Shown one piece after another: positions 36,767 through 44,836 of a DNA stretch of 64,000 nucleotides (position 1 is the first letter of the stretch; each line of letters begins with the position of its first letter). Source of the stretch: Saprospiraceae bacterium (lineage in GTDB: Bacteria > Bacteroidota > Bacteroidia > Chitinophagales > Saprospiraceae). The position numbers and the translations under genes were made by a program. Under the pieces are notes generated by a model. It did no database searches and was not told the DNA's origin. It was given only the letters and a program-made list of their open reading frames with translations. The DNA lies in NCBI GenBank assembly GCA_016787345.1, contig JAEUUU010000088.1, positions 1 to 64,000 of the forward strand, written 5' to 3'.

Positions 36767-37450
36767 CTAAAACAGCGTCGGCGTATCCGCTACTTCTTCG
36801 TGCAAATCGGGTCCGTCGTGCGCCGGTGAATTGACCCGGTCGGAGACCGGATAGAGGCGAAGGTAAGCATCTGCGGGAGGATGCAGCATATCGAGTGTGG
36901 CTTCGAGCGACTGTTCGGAGAGCCAGCGTTGTTGCTCAGCCTCATTGGTCAGCAATACCGGCATACGATCGTGCAGGCCGCCGAGCTCGCGGTTGGGCGT
37001 CGTGGTGATGATGGAAAAACTGCGCAGTTTTTTCCCGTCGGGTTGTCGCCATTCGTCCCAGATACCGGCAAAGCACAACAAACTGCCGTCGGCCGGCAGG
37101 ATGCGATAGGGTACTTTTCGGCCGCCCGGCAATTTTCGCCATTCATAAAAACTGTCGGCCCACACCAGGCAGTGCCGGCGTCGGATGGGGTCGCGAAAAG
37201 ATGGTTTTTCCTCAATGCCTTCTGCGCGGGCGTTGATAAGTTTGCCGCCGTTGGCGCCGTCGCGGCTCCAGTGCGGCACCAGCCCCCAGGTCATCGCCTG
37301 CAAGAGCCCGGGCGCATCATTGGCCACCACGTATCCCTGTTGGGTGGGCGCGATGTTAAAACTCAGTTTCAACTCTGCCGGTCGTTCAAGGTCGGCGAGT
37401 TGGGTATCGATCTGCTTTTTGGTCGGTACGAAAGAATAGCGGCCGCACAT
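36767..37450 (-). CDS. SOS response-associated peptidase family (HMCES/YedK)
   Basis: A 227-residue SRAP protein, which forms a covalent thiazolidine crosslink with abasic sites in single-stranded DNA and so protects the fork. The catalytic Cys is at position 2 in MCGRYSFVP; others are INARAEGIEEKPSF near 78 with the conserved Asn and Glu, and LGGLHDRMPVLL near 158 with the active-site His. The length equals E. coli YedK (222). It reads away from the origin-like region at 37451-38131, whose first base is adjacent to its start codon, so its promoter must lie in that region. It may be cotranscribed with the flippase gene. Confidence 0.95.
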   Translation of the reverse strand: MCGRYSFVPTKKQIDTQLADLERPAELKLSFNIAPTQQGYVVANDAPGLLQAMTWGLVPHWSRDGANGGKLINARAEGIEEKPSFRDPIRRRHCLVWADSFYEWRKLPGGRKVPYRILPADGSLLCFAGIWDEWRQPDGKKLRSFSIITTTPNRELGGLHDRMPVLLTNEAEQQRWLSEQSLEATLDMLHPPADAYLRLYPVSDRVNSPAHDGPDLHEEVADTPTLF

Positions 37451-38131
37451 GGTGGTTGAAATGTGGCGTTGTCAGCGTTTTTGTTGGGTGAATTTTCGGG
37501 GGAAAATTTGGCGTGGCGGGGGGCTGATGGTGGAATAATTTTGGACCTAAAAGCCAAAGTACACTGAATCAGGTGATTAAGCGCATTGCTCAACAGACAT
37601 TTTTTGTTTCAAAACTTTATCCACACTAAAATTAAAGCTTTGCATAAGTTTCTCATTTACAGGCGTGTGATTTTTTCCGATTTCAGGAAACGACTGTGGA
37701 GAACTTCACGCTGGCTTAACATTGGCTAACACTACCCTGCCCATTTTCCCCCAATCGGGGCCTTTGCCTGAAAATGCCGTGGATAAACAGCCCCTTTGCA
37801 CACACTTCTTCACAGCTAACAGCCGTGTTAAATCGAAACGGCCCGGAAATCGAATATTTTCCCACATGGTTGTGTAAAACGTTGCAAGTAACTGATGACC
37901 AACTCATTTTTGGAGCCCATTGTGTGGAAAAAGCTGGTAACTCAAAAGGAAAACGGAGGTTCTTCAATGTGTTATGCGGTTATAAACAAGCTAACAGCCC
38001 TGATGATGACGATGGGTTTGAAATTTAAACCTGATAAAATTAACCATTAGGGTTAAGGAATGAGGATAATCGAGCAACGGAACGGTTCTACTTTTGTTTT
38101 AAAATTCGGATAAAGCCGAAACGCTATCGTT
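37451..38131. other. Candidate chromosomal origin of replication (oriC)
   Basis: A 681-bp gene-free, AT-richer stretch with a cluster of DnaA-box-like 9-mers. Exact TTWTNCACA matches: TTATCCACA at 37617-37625, TTTTACACA on the minus strand at 37871-37879, and TTTTCCACA on the minus strand at 37923-37931. One-mismatch versions: 37695-37703 (-), 37778-37786 (-), 37794-37802 (+), 37858-37866 (+) and 37980-37988 (+). An AT-rich patch at about 38020-38050 could serve as the unwinding element. Genes diverge from it on both sides. parS-like sites lie about 4 kb to the right. dnaA itself is not adjacent, which is not unusual in this phylum. Cumulative GC skew over the genome would settle it. Confidence 0.65.
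38089..38096 (+). promoter_or_regulatory. Predicted -7 element of ctaA
   Basis: TACTTTTG, matching TAnnTTTG, 35 bases before the ctaA ATG at 38132. The -33 position lacks a clear TTG. Confidence 0.35.
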
Positions 38132-39229
38132 ATGTCGACTTCTGAAACAAGCCTTGTTCTTCAACAATCTTCCCGCGCCGTTCGCATCTGGATCATCACC
38201 GGGATTATCATGGTATTCCTGCAAATTGTGATCGGAGGGGTCACGCGTCTGACCGGGAGCGGACTGAGTATCACGCGTTGGGAGGTGGTGACCGGAACTA
38301 TACCGCCTTTGTCGCAAGCCGACTGGGAAGAGGCGTTTGCCTTGTATCAGCAAACGCCGCAGTATCACAAGATCAATCGGGGGATGTCGCTGGGCGAATT
38401 CAAGTTTATTTACTTCTGGGAATACTTCCACCGGCTTTGGGCGCGCCTGATGTTTTTTGTGTTCGTTTTTCCTTTTGCCTGGTTCTGGTGGAAAGGCCTG
38501 CTGAATCCTGTTGTGCGGCGCAGGCTGCTGATCGTGGTGCTGCTGGCCGGCCTCGAAGGCTTTTTCGGCTGGATTATGGTTGCCAGCGGACTGATCAAAC
38601 GCCCTTGGGTCAATGCCTACAACCTGACGCTGCACCTTAGTATGGGCATATTAATTTTCGCTTATTTGCTCTGGACGTATTTTATCGCCCGGCAACCGCG
38701 GCCCTCCGACCGGCTGGAACCCCGCTGGCGCAAATTCGGCTGGTGGATGGTCGGTATTGCTTTCTTTCAGATTGCGCTGGGCGCCATGATGTCGGGTACA
38801 AAAGCGGGTTTGTTTTTCCCGACCTGGCCCGATATGCAAGGCATGTTTTTGCCAGGCCTGCTATTGGATGGAAGCAAATGGACGGGCGACAGTTTTATCC
38901 ACTACGACACGGATCCTTTCGTTCCTGCGCTGATCCAGTTTTTGCACCGCAATACGGCTTATTTGCTGACGGGTATGGTGCTCTATTATTTCTGGAACTT
39001 GCGCAAGTTGCCTGTCAGCGCCACCTTGCGAACCGGTTTGTGGGTACTATTGGTTGCACTGGGCATCCAGGTGCTGCTGGGCATTCTTACTTTGATCAAC
39101 TGTATTGCCAGTGTACCGGTTACCTTGGGTGTGCTGCATCAGGCCGGCGCGGTTGTGTTATTGGGCGTTCTGTTGTATGTAGTCTACCAGTCAGCACCGG
39201 TGGCTGGTTCTACGAAGAGGGGGAATTGA
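38132..39229 (+). CDS. ctaA: Heme A synthase (COX15/CtaA family)
   Basis: A 365-residue inner-membrane enzyme that oxidises the C8 methyl of heme O to give heme A for cytochrome aa3 oxidases. It has eight predicted helices in two homologous four-helix halves and the four conserved heme-ligand His contexts: EYFHRLWAR near 110, NLTLHLSMG near 168, QFLHRNTAY near 273 and GVLHQAGAV near 332. GGVTRLTGSGLSITRWEVVTG near 35 is the family hallmark. The length is closer to the mitochondrial COX15/alphaproteobacterial form than to the short Bacillus CtaA. No oxidase genes are adjacent in the window. It reads away from the candidate origin. Confidence 0.94.
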   Translation: MSTSETSLVLQQSSRAVRIWIITGIIMVFLQIVIGGVTRLTGSGLSITRWEVVTGTIPPLSQADWEEAFALYQQTPQYHKINRGMSLGEFKFIYFWEYFHRLWARLMFFVFVFPFAWFWWKGLLNPVVRRRLLIVVLLAGLEGFFGWIMVASGLIKRPWVNAYNLTLHLSMGILIFAYLLWTYFIARQPRPSDRLEPRWRKFGWWMVGIAFFQIALGAMMSGTKAGLFFPTWPDMQGMFLPGLLLDGSKWTGDSFIHYDTDPFVPALIQFLHRNTAYLLTGMVLYYFWNLRKLPVSATLRTGLWVLLVALGIQVLLGILTLINCIASVPVTLGVLHQAGAVVLLGVLLYVVYQSAPVAGSTKRGN

Positions 39230-41793: not shown

Positions 41794-41823
41794 AAAAAAA
41801 AAGGACGCGCTTGCGCACGTCCT
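41794..41823 (-). terminator. Probable terminator of the thrC transcript
   Basis: On the minus strand AGGACGTGCGC pairs imperfectly with GCGCGTCCT and is followed by a run of nine T. It lies 35 to 65 bp past the thrC stop, on the far side of the parS-like palindrome. Confidence 0.75.
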
Positions 41824-41841: not shown

Positions 41842-41857
41842 TGTTCCACGTGGAACA
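41842..41857. other. parS-like partition site 1
   Basis: TGTTCCACGTGGAACA, a perfect 16-bp palindrome, directly abutting the thrC stop codon. It fits the general ParB-binding parS consensus GTTNCACGTGNAAC and equals the form known in Pseudomonas-type parS sites. Such sites cluster near bacterial replication origins and seed ParB loading for chromosome segregation. It is about 3.9 kb from the candidate oriC. Confidence 0.85.
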
Positions 41858-43165
41858 CTATGTGTTTTCTTCCAAGAGATAAGATTGGAACGTATCGAAA
41901 TCGGCTGGCAAAATGGTTGATACCTTGGGGCGGTGTTGCAGTTCTGCCAACCTTTCCGGGATGTCGATAGTCCGATGCAGGATGCGTTCCATGTCTTCTC
42001 TGAACTTTGCCGGATGCGCAGTTTCCAGGATAATGCCCAGGCACTCCTTTTTTGTTGTGGCCTGATACTGCCGCAGGGCCAGATAACCGATGACCCCATG
42101 CGGGTCGAGAAGGTAGTGGTACTGCTGGTCAACCGCCCGCAAAGTCTTTTCTGTTTCGACATCAGAAAAGGCAAAGCCCGAGATGTCGTTTTTGATTGTG
42201 TTCCACGTGGAACCGTACAGGTCCATCATGCGGGCAAAGTTGGAGGGGGCGCCCACGTCCATGGCATTTGACAGGGTGCGGACGGAGGGGCGGGGACGGT
42301 ATTCGCCGCTGGTCAGGTACTTTGGTACGACGTCGTTGGCGTTCGTTGCGGCGATAAAATGCTGTACCGGCAAACCCATGCGGGAAGCCAAAAGGCCGGC
42401 AGTGAGGTTGCCGAAGTTGCCCGACGGTACGGAAAAGACAATCGGTTTGTTCAGGTGGCTAACCTGTTTGAAGGCCTCGAAGTAGTAAAATGATTGAGGG
42501 ATAAGCCGGGCGATATTGATGCTGTTGGCTGAGCTCAGCCGCAGCCGGGCGTTCAGGTCGGCGTCTAAAAAGGCTTTTTTTACAAGGGCCTGGCAGTCGT
42601 CGAAGGTGCCCTCTATTTCGAGGGCAGTGATGTTGTGGCCAAGCGTGGTGAGTTGTTTTTCCTGTAAAGGGCTCACTTTGCCCGATGGGTAGAGAATGAT
42701 GACCCGAATGCCCGGCGTTCGGTAAAATCCGGCCGCCACCGCCCCACCCGTATCGCCCGATGTGGCGACCAAAATAGTCAGTTCCTGGTCTTCTCCCCGG
42801 TTAAAATAGGACATTGTCTCGGCCATGAATCGCGCGCCGAAATCCTTGAAGGCCAGGGAAGGGCCATGGAAAAGTTCGAGAATGCCGGTGTGTTCGTCGA
42901 GCAATACAACCGGCGCCGGGAAGTTGATGGCTCTTTCTACAATGCCCCGCAAATCAGATGCCGGTATTTCAGCGCCGATCAACGTATGCGCTACGGTAAA
43001 CGCTATGTCCTGAAAACTGAAACGGGAGAGATTTCGAATAAAACTGTCTGGTAAAACCGAAAGGTCGGACGGCATAAAAAGTCCGTTGTCGGACGGTAAG
43101 CCCTGAAATAAGGCCTCGCGGAAATTGACGCGTAAGGCCGGATTGTTGGTGCTGTACAATTGCAT
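41858..43165 (-). CDS. thrC: Threonine synthase
   Basis: A 435-residue PLP enzyme that converts O-phosphohomoserine to threonine. The start MQLYSTNNPALRVNFREAL and the cofactor-Lys motif HGPSLAFKDFGARFMAE (Lys near residue 109) are diagnostic, with the PLP-phosphate loop VATSGDTGGAVAAGF near 136. The length fits the Bacteroidota/yeast-like class II form. It begins 10 bp after the stop of the OmpA-family gene and is probably cotranscribed from that gene's promoter. A parS-like palindrome is embedded in its coding region at 42199-42214 and another follows the stop, so the 3' part of the gene is constrained for chromosome partition too. Confidence 0.96.
   Translation of the reverse strand: MQLYSTNNPALRVNFREALFQGLPSDNGLFMPSDLSVLPDSFIRNLSRFSFQDIAFTVAHTLIGAEIPASDLRGIVERAINFPAPVVLLDEHTGILELFHGPSLAFKDFGARFMAETMSYFNRGEDQELTILVATSGDTGGAVAAGFYRTPGIRVIILYPSGKVSPLQEKQLTTLGHNITALEIEGTFDDCQALVKKAFLDADLNARLRLSSANSINIARLIPQSFYYFEAFKQVSHLNKPIVFSVPSGNFGNLTAGLLASRMGLPVQHFIAATNANDVVPKYLTSGEYRPRPSVRTLSNAMDVGAPSNFARMMDLYGSTWNTIKNDISGFAFSDVETEKTLRAVDQQYHYLLDPHGVIGYLALRQYQATTKKECLGIILETAHPAKFREDMERILHRTIDIPERLAELQHRPKVSTILPADFDTFQSYLLEENT
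42199..42214. other. parS-like partition site 2, inside thrC
   Basis: TGTTCCACGTGGAACC, with the 14-bp core GTTCCACGTGGAAC (42200-42213) perfectly palindromic, 357 bp from site 1. A 14-bp palindrome inside a coding region identical to the nearby intergenic one is not expected by chance. Confidence 0.85.
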
Positions 43166-43175
43166 GAGTCGGGTG

Positions 43176-44798
43176 TTATATTTTGGTGATCCGGATTTCT
43201 ACCCGGCGATTTTTTGCGCGGCTTTCCTCGTTGTCGTTCTCCGTCAGCGGCTGTCGGGCGCCATGTCCGATGGTTTCCATACGATCGGCACTGACGCCCT
43301 CGTTCGTCAAGAAATCCCGGATTGCTTTGGCCCGGTCTTCTGATAATTTTTGAAGGTCGGTGGGTTGACCAATGTTGTCCGTATGCCCCTCAATCCGGAT
43401 GTGCAAGTTGGGGTTATCGATCATGAGTGTTGCCAGCCGCGACAATTCCGGGTAGGATTGGTCGAGGATGATGGCCTTCGACTGTTGGAAAAAAATAGGC
43501 TGGAGTTCGATTTTACTTCCCACTGCCAGGGGGGCCAAAAACAGATCAACGTACTGCTCCCGAAAATAATAGTATTGCCGGGGGAAGTATACCTCCATGG
43601 GTTGGCCTGCGTAGCCGGGGTGAAACGCGGTAAAGTTGAACCGAACGCCGCGTGCTACTTTAAGGCGGAAGAGCCCTTCTTCTGCCTCAATAATATTCGT
43701 GGTGTCGCCTTCCGCGCCGTAAAGGACTCGTGCGTTGCGCACGAGCTGCCGCGAACTCTGGTCCACTACCCTTCCGATAAGCGTCAGTTCCGTTTCCTGC
43801 GGTGGTTCGATTTGTATGCGATAGATGTCGCTGCTTCCGTCGCGCTTTGACGTGAAGTACAGGTAGCCTGTCGTCATGTTGAAATACGGCTGACTCTCGT
43901 CAGAAACGGAATTGATACGGGAATCGAGCCGCTGGGGCTTGGTCCAGTTTTTCCAGCTGTCGTCGAGGCGGTGTGTTTTGAATATGTCAAAACCGCCGGA
44001 ACTTTCCTCCCGGTTGGAAGCGAAGTAAAGCGTCTCGTTGTCTTCTGATAAGAACGGCGTCAATTCTCTTTTCGGCGAATTGACTACATTGCCCAAATGC
44101 TGCGGCGCCCCCCAGCGGTTGGGGCCTTTTCGAAAACAAACGTAGAGGTCCATTTCTTTCGAGTCGAAACGCGCCGCGGCCAGGATCATCACCTTGCCGT
44201 CGAAACTCATCGTCAGGCTTACTTCCGACTGAATAGTGTAAAAGTCGTCCAGTTCGATCGGCGACGGAAAACTCCAGCCGCTGCTGTCGGTGGTGCGGCG
44301 TACGTACGAAAAACCCCGGCTCATGTTTCCATTGCGTTCAAATTGATTAATCACGTACAACATGTTCGGATCGGGTGTGATCGTCATGACGCTGTTGGGC
44401 AGTGCGTTGTTCAACGGATAACCGGGGTGCTCCACTTCGGTGAAATTAGCCAGCGAATCCTGGGCAGTGGCAATCCAGATATCCTGGTTAAAGCCGGATC
44501 GAACGGGAGCATAAACGGGTTTGCCTGCAATTTGGGTGTAAACGCCCGAAAGCGTGGCGATAAATTCCAGCGGCGATTCGCTGACTGCCCGGTCGATACT
44601 GTCGATCAAAAGTGTGCGGTTAAAATTGTCGCAACCTACCCGGGTGAAATAAAGCGTTCGCCCGTCTCTGCTCGGTACGGGCGTGATCTCATCGCAACTG
44701 GAATTGATCAAGTCAGGAAGTTTTTCCAAACGCCAGGTTTGGGCCAGTCCTGGCAACGTAAAAAACAGGAACAAAAAAACGAAAGCGGATTGTGGCAT
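43176..44798 (-). CDS. OmpA-family protein with PD40 propeller
   Basis: A 540-residue envelope protein. Order: signal peptide (about 1-20, LFFTLPGLAQ), a WD40-like/PD40 propeller (about 22-320; repeats such as SRDGRTLYFTRVG, LSEDNETLYFASNREE, NMTTGYLYFTSKRDGSSDIY), a carboxypeptidase-regulatory-like domain (about 330-410: IGRVVDQSSRQLVRNARVLY) and an OmpA C-terminal peptidoglycan-binding domain (about 420-540: IRIEGHTDNIGQPTDLQKLS, DRMETIGHGARQP, NRRVEIRITKI). This layout is shared with PorE/T9SS-associated and gliding proteins of the phylum; whether it belongs to T9SS is inference. Its promoter is close to the start (44805-44836), and thrC follows. Confidence 0.9.
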   Translation of the reverse strand: MPQSAFVFLFLFFTLPGLAQTWRLEKLPDLINSSCDEITPVPSRDGRTLYFTRVGCDNFNRTLLIDSIDRAVSESPLEFIATLSGVYTQIAGKPVYAPVRSGFNQDIWIATAQDSLANFTEVEHPGYPLNNALPNSVMTITPDPNMLYVINQFERNGNMSRGFSYVRRTTDSSGWSFPSPIELDDFYTIQSEVSLTMSFDGKVMILAAARFDSKEMDLYVCFRKGPNRWGAPQHLGNVVNSPKRELTPFLSEDNETLYFASNREESSGGFDIFKTHRLDDSWKNWTKPQRLDSRINSVSDESQPYFNMTTGYLYFTSKRDGSSDIYRIQIEPPQETELTLIGRVVDQSSRQLVRNARVLYGAEGDTTNIIEAEEGLFRLKVARGVRFNFTAFHPGYAGQPMEVYFPRQYYYFREQYVDLFLAPLAVGSKIELQPIFFQQSKAIILDQSYPELSRLATLMIDNPNLHIRIEGHTDNIGQPTDLQKLSEDRAKAIRDFLTNEGVSADRMETIGHGARQPLTENDNEESRAKNRRVEIRITKI

Positions 44799-44804
44799 AC
44801 GGGT

Positions 44805-44836
44805 CAAAATTAGATGCTCTATCGGGTTATGGCAAA
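44805..44836 (-). promoter_or_regulatory. Predicted promoter (TTTG-N20-TAATTTTG) of the OmpA-thrC operon
   Basis: On the minus strand TTTG (44833-44836) and TAATTTTG (44805-44812) are 20 bases apart. The -7 element ends only 6 bases before the ATG at 44798, so the transcript would have almost no leader. It lies just after the thiolase terminator. Confidence 0.55.

Follow-up and report, generated by a model that had tools for sequence, protein, structure and literature searches.

A probable chromosomal parS site within the threonine synthase gene of a Saprospiraceae bacterium

Can a stretch of DNA serve as a centromere of the chromosome and at the same time encode part of an enzyme? The question is raised by a locus of a Saprospiraceae bacterium (assembly GCA_016787345.1, contig JAEUUU010000088.1), which was analyzed in a window of 64,000 nucleotides, i.e. 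the whole stretch of DNA under consideration. A preliminary description, made from the sequence alone, had pointed to two parS-like palindromes in this window, one within thrC and the other abutting its stop codon, and had proposed that chromosome partition is tied there to a housekeeping gene.

The palindrome pair and the partition proteins

Both palindromes are present, at 41842-41857 and 42199-42214, with a start-to-start spacing of 357 bp. The second is internal to thrC, and the last base of the first (41857) directly adjoins the thrC stop codon (41858-41860). The features of this part of the window are as follows.

41802..41823, minus strand: terminator-like hairpin (nine pairs and a T-run) after thrC and the 3' palindrome, from a hairpin scan
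41842..41857, no strand: putative parS site 3' of thrC, 16-mer TGTTCCACGTGGAACA, between the stop codon and the terminator-like hairpin
41858..43165, minus strand: thrC, threonine synthase of 435 aa (TIGR00260, 282.5 bits, cut-off 167.1)
42199..42214, no strand: putative parS site inside thrC, 16-mer TGTTCCACGTGGAACC
43176..44807, minus strand: OmpA/PD40 protein, PorE-like

The best solved chain for ThrC is 1vb3 (E 7e-115), and the nearest named kin of the bacterium by this protein are Saprospiraceae. Six terminator-like matches were counted in the 2-kb stretch, for a shuffle mean of 2.9, the hairpin at 41802..41823 having the longest stem. Since this hairpin and its T-run lie beyond the 3' palindrome, the 3' site is probably transcribed with thrC.

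The correspondence between the pair and the 16-bp parS palindrome TGTTYCACGTGRAACA is as had been proposed; the copy in thrC has one deviating outer base, owing to its GGT codon. At three mismatches or fewer the window contains two matches, the pair itself (shuffle mean 0.23; 1 of 100 shuffles reached two). A scatter of the motif over the genome had been named as an argument against parS. The whole assembly (191 contigs with 5,281,146 bases; completeness 94%) contains exactly two copies of the 14-bp core GTTCCACGTGGAAC, both in the window pair. Looser core matches were found at one place with one mismatch and at eleven places with two. With up to two mismatches the core pattern and its reversed control were equally frequent (14 places each), so near matches were taken as background and weight was given to exact matches only. 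A separate observation is the 16-mer TGTTCCACATGGAACA at L003 683-698 (contig 33 of the same genome, C33:684), one mismatch from parS and apparently outside long reading frames, which could be either background or a third, weak site.

The absence of ParA and ParB had likewise been considered as evidence against a partition site. Both genes are present in the same genome, ParA having been looked at in this genome only, and SMC is present as well (988 bits).

L254 9637-10566, minus strand: ParB, overlapping ParA by four bases
L254 10563-11351, minus strand: ParA, adjoining ParB

ParB, located on contig 57 (TIGR00180, E 6e-53), has as its best solved chain 7bnk (E 4e-54), from M. xanthus. VGKERST and the GHA stretch of the protein agree with 7bnk by eye, outside the Caulobacter numbering in which R173 and G201 are given as reader residues of the parS type in an excerpt of PMC7383237. 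The protein also contains GERRFRA, in agreement with the GERRxRA motif that an excerpt of PMC7333895 gives for chromosomal ParB. A ParB match was obtained in 36 of 40 genomes (that of the window being one of the 40), but none in G003, G018, G031 and G037. We also note that G031, an assembly 100% complete, carries a pair of parS sites at L200 9961-10025 (contig 4), yet gave no ParB match.

The word itself has precedents. According to the portion consulted of PMC7022226, which has a table of parS words for P. putida, P. aeruginosa and M. xanthus, the parS of both Pseudomonas species, TGTTCCACGTGGAACA, is the same 16-mer as the 3' site described here, and that of Myxococcus xanthus, TGTTCCACGTGGAACG, has the same core word, although M. 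xanthus has 22 such sites and the present genome two. The reading of the two palindromes as parS is well supported.

Position relative to a candidate origin

The pair had been placed close to the replication origin on account of a cluster of DnaA boxes about 4 kb away. Such a cluster is indeed found in the window: an intergenic region holds five boxes with at most one mismatch (one of them exact) at 37617-38061, and 3.8-4.2 kb separate them from the nearer palindrome.

36767..37450, minus strand: SRAP-domain protein (Pfam PF02586), on the other flank of the candidate oriC
37451..38131, no strand: candidate oriC, intergenic between SRAP and ctaA, with five DnaA-box-like 9-mers (one exact, at 37617)
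38132..39229, plus strand: ctaA / COX15 heme A synthase (Pfam PF02628), flanking the candidate oriC

To assess the conservation of this cluster, a stretch of 800 bp (501 bp in G013) lying 5' of the ctaA match was analyzed in 22 genus genomes, out of 23 with such a match, a fragment in G015 being left out. At least two DnaA-like boxes were present in 21 of the 22. For 17 of these 21 genomes none of 100 shuffles reached the box count, and one or two did for G007, G009, G014 and G022; the remaining genome, G011, has a single box, a count that 21 of 100 shuffles reach. Outside the genus no such box was found upstream of ctaA in the seven genomes examined (seven further ctaA matches were left out, six without a locus and one, L287, with an internal stop). 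Three exact copies of TTATCCACA within 500 bp occur on the ctaA side, and nowhere else, in the assemblies of G014 and G001; parS in G014 is 2.3 kb from this cluster. G018 has two exact copies on the ctaA side and two at one other place. Genome-wide, the exact box is at most moderately more frequent than its reversed control (48/45 in G014, 32/23 in G018 and 36/25 in G001), so that only its clustering counts. ctaA and parS share a contig and are at most 20 kb apart in 17 of the 21 genus genomes containing both, and are on different contigs in the other four. Twelve named loci outside the genus set were also considered: six have at least three boxes per 500 bp near parS, beside ctaA or SRAP in L084 and L080, and six do not.

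Base composition did not bring the same clarity. GC and TA skew, raw or restricted to 4-fold sites, indicated no clear origin in the window, in the sampled contig 1 of G007, in contig 1 of G012 or in 220 kb of contig 1 of G009, and raw skew mostly tracks the coding strand. The proximity to an origin is thus sustained by the conserved box cluster upstream of ctaA and left without a clear signal by skew.

One may then ask if the sites are parS sites located far from an origin that is at dnaA, the boxes near ctaA serving otherwise, e.g. to titrate DnaA. Distances give this some weight: dnaA and parB are separated by about 61-70 kb in G007 and G009, and in G007 the contig with parS also carries parB and dnaA, at distances from parS of about 2.0 Mb and 1.9 Mb respectively (in G002 the distance between parB and parS is only about 32 kb). 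The 4-fold-site TA skew moreover changes sign near dnaA in G007, a flip that is not clear in its close kin G009. In G012 it is parS, at 217 kb of a 581-kb contig, that falls, weakly, among the cumulative skew minima (about 140-300 kb). The boxes also speak against an origin at dnaA, since the dnaA loci (about 4.4 kb) of eight genomes hold zero to three DnaA-like boxes and no exact one, and the only cluster of three exact boxes in G014 and G001 is that of the ctaA side. We therefore regard an origin at dnaA as unlikely, and consider that the genus probably has its oriC in the ctaA region, at a distance from dnaA in those genomes that were checked.

Persistence of the sites where thrC is not found

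The distribution of the exact word GTTYCACGTGRAAC was examined in the 40 genomes. It is present in 34, the window's own included, and its reversed control in none; the six genomes devoid of an exact site are G001, G015, G026, G030, G037 and G039. Thirty genomes have at least two sites, and in 26 of them all sites are on one contig within 6.3 kb; in the other four (G003, G006, G013 and G038) they are split over contigs. As in the window's own assembly, where the pair accounts for two of two exact copies, the copies are few and clustered rather than scattered.

In six of the 25 genus genomes (G001, G004, G013, G017, G018 and G021) the search with the window's ThrC gave no match, and no protein exceeded the TIGR00260 cut-off, the weaker TIGR00260 matches that they contain being possibly other enzymes of the fold. 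These bacteria may depend on threonine, or their assemblies may have gaps. Several of the six are fragmented or have a completeness of 84-87%, the cleanest being G021 (99%, about 50 contigs). Five of the six have an exact parS site, G001 having none, and in four of the six (G013, G017, G018 and G021) parS directly adjoins an ompA-like gene, the counterpart of the gene next to thrC in the window. In G017 and G021, as in G010, the neighbour of this gene is a pair of sites 39-43 bp apart; in G018 and G013 it is one site, located in G013 at the very end of a contig. In G004 the site is by a thiolase gene which itself adjoins ompA. As the sites remain beside the ompA-like gene where thrC is not found, parS seems not to depend on thrC, and the proposal that partition is tied to a housekeeping gene was too strong.

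Close pairs of sites are not restricted to these genomes. Eight genomes of the order (loci L203, L201, L200, L023, L024, L245, L246 and L198) have two parS sites 38-51 bp apart from start to start, and they include genus members in which thrC is not beside parS. This close pair is possibly the older arrangement.

A functional link between site and gene could nevertheless be imagined, in which ParB loading inside thrC and transcription through thrC would affect each other and couple threonine synthesis to origin segregation, the coding location fixing the centromere while intergenic copies come and go. We consider such a coupling improbable. Still less credit can be given to the idea that the palindromes are not parS but operators through which thrC is controlled, by a local transcription factor or by some other protein binding to palindromes. 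Their placement lends itself to this idea in part, since sites are found in thrC, 5' of it or 3' of it in different relatives, the non-coding ones changing place from one relative to another. Nonetheless the word is that of the parS tables of P. aeruginosa, P. putida and M. xanthus cited above (PMC7022226, in part), it is kept beside the ompA-like gene where thrC is not found, and in G025, G031 and G035, i.e. in all three non-genus genomes that gave a thrC match, the sites are away from thrC. A thrC operator is thus very unlikely.

Codon conservation at the site inside thrC

If the palindromes are parS sites, what holds one of them within a gene? The internal site covers codons 318-322 of thrC, read on the coding strand as GGT TCC ACG TGG AAC A.. 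(G318, S319, T320, W321 and N322). In the predicted fold of ThrC (mean pLDDT 91.8; 83 and 87 for the blocks 311-320 and 321-330), residues 317-320 form a turn between a helix (310-316) and a short helix (321-324) which starts with W321 and N322. The site is found at homologous codons in all 17 genus thrC that reach this position, i.e. 16 full-length genes and the fragment G024b; the fragments of G010 and G015 stop short of it and are outside this count.

A quick tree of 76 ThrC rows (19 genomes of the set and 57 of 80 named loci), with the residues of the site masked, limits the internal site to one clade of 34 rows (SH-aLRT 95), of which 27 have it. This clade includes 18 named rows, 12 of them titled Saprospiraceae or Phaeodactylibacter. 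The minimum number of state changes is five, one reading of the tree being that the site was gained once and lost four times. The seven clade rows without it are L069, L070, L071, L073, L074, L076 and L085. Two sites 50-70 bp apart are present past the thrC stop in L074 and L076, and one site 661 bp downstream in L073; no parS site is present in L071 within 10 kb to each side, and less than 0.7 kb of downstream sequence is available for L069, L070 and L085.

The preliminary description had proposed to weigh the conservation of the palindrome against synonymous codon freedom, and this comparison turned out strongly in favour of parS. It was made on the 16 full-length genus thrC, taken for their relatedness, irrespective of whether they carry the site. 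Their mean amino-acid identity is 66.7%, and at shared 4-fold amino acids the third base is the same in 32% of comparisons. Among 160 invariant columns of degenerate amino acids only three use a single codon, and all three are in the palindrome: S319 (TCC), T320 (ACG) and N322 (AAC). In other words, codons are fixed in 3/3 such columns inside the site vs 0/157 elsewhere, and random placement of three single-codon columns onto these positions has a probability of about 1.5e-6. The longest run of invariant DNA in the 16 genes is GTTCCACGTGGAACA (15 bases), the next one having 5 bases.

In the genus, G, C or S precedes S319, with R as a further variant in Phaeodactylibacter (L075), and the codon of this residue is NGT in every case; in four named loci (L077 and L079-L081) TTC (F) replaces TCC (S) and the parS word is kept. 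These NGT and TTC observations are circular, as they come from thrC rows selected by having the site, a bias of which the 16-gene codon test is free. The internal site is held at the DNA level as judged from codon use: the DNA word imposes the codons of S-T-W-N, and the residue before them can vary only as far as NGT codons allow. That the palindrome is instead a by-product of protein constraint, STWN being needed by threonine synthase and its codons following usage, is hardly tenable: several relatives that lack the site do have W321 (SEWG, KSWS, SAWG, NSWD), so that part of the parS word may predate the site, yet the residues at this position vary in threonine synthases outside the clade, the S to F change and the varying residue before the invariant GT leave parS intact, and the codon fixation is confined to the site.

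As a whole, the locus is very probably to be explained by chromosomal parS (centromere) sites, one of which is built into a turn of ThrC under selection on the DNA word. We infer ParB binding, origin activity and a role in segregation from these data: ParB, encoded elsewhere in the genome, would nucleate on the two sites, its clamp would slide over adjacent DNA and recruit SMC, and ParA would move the newly replicated origin region apart.

The parS word, its clustering near the origin and its location in genes all have precedents, and parS inside genes is not unusual. According to an excerpt of PMC4368675, predictions place nine of ten P. aeruginosa sites in coding sequences. The present case differs from Pseudomonas in that there are only two sites, 357 bp apart, that the in-gene site keeps its codons across related genera, and that parAB are on another contig (in the relative G007, their distance to parS is 2 Mb). 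The Caulobacter crescentus cluster is similar in having sites within genes, essential or costly ones, near the origin (about 8 kb), and differs in having more sites per cluster and in other genes (PMC5815017, in part). Among the literature matches listed, considered by titles and starts of abstracts, no description of parS in thrC or in Saprospiraceae appeared; an earlier mention is possible. What appears new here is the codon-by-codon evidence that a centromere word would dictate part of an enzyme sequence across related genera, together with sites that seem to persist in genomes where thrC is not found and a probable oriC. The locus would thus give a probable location of oriC and parS for this group of Bacteroidota, apart from dnaA in the genomes checked, and a case where one DNA stretch is probably both a chromosome centromere and the code of an enzyme, the constraint being readable codon by codon.
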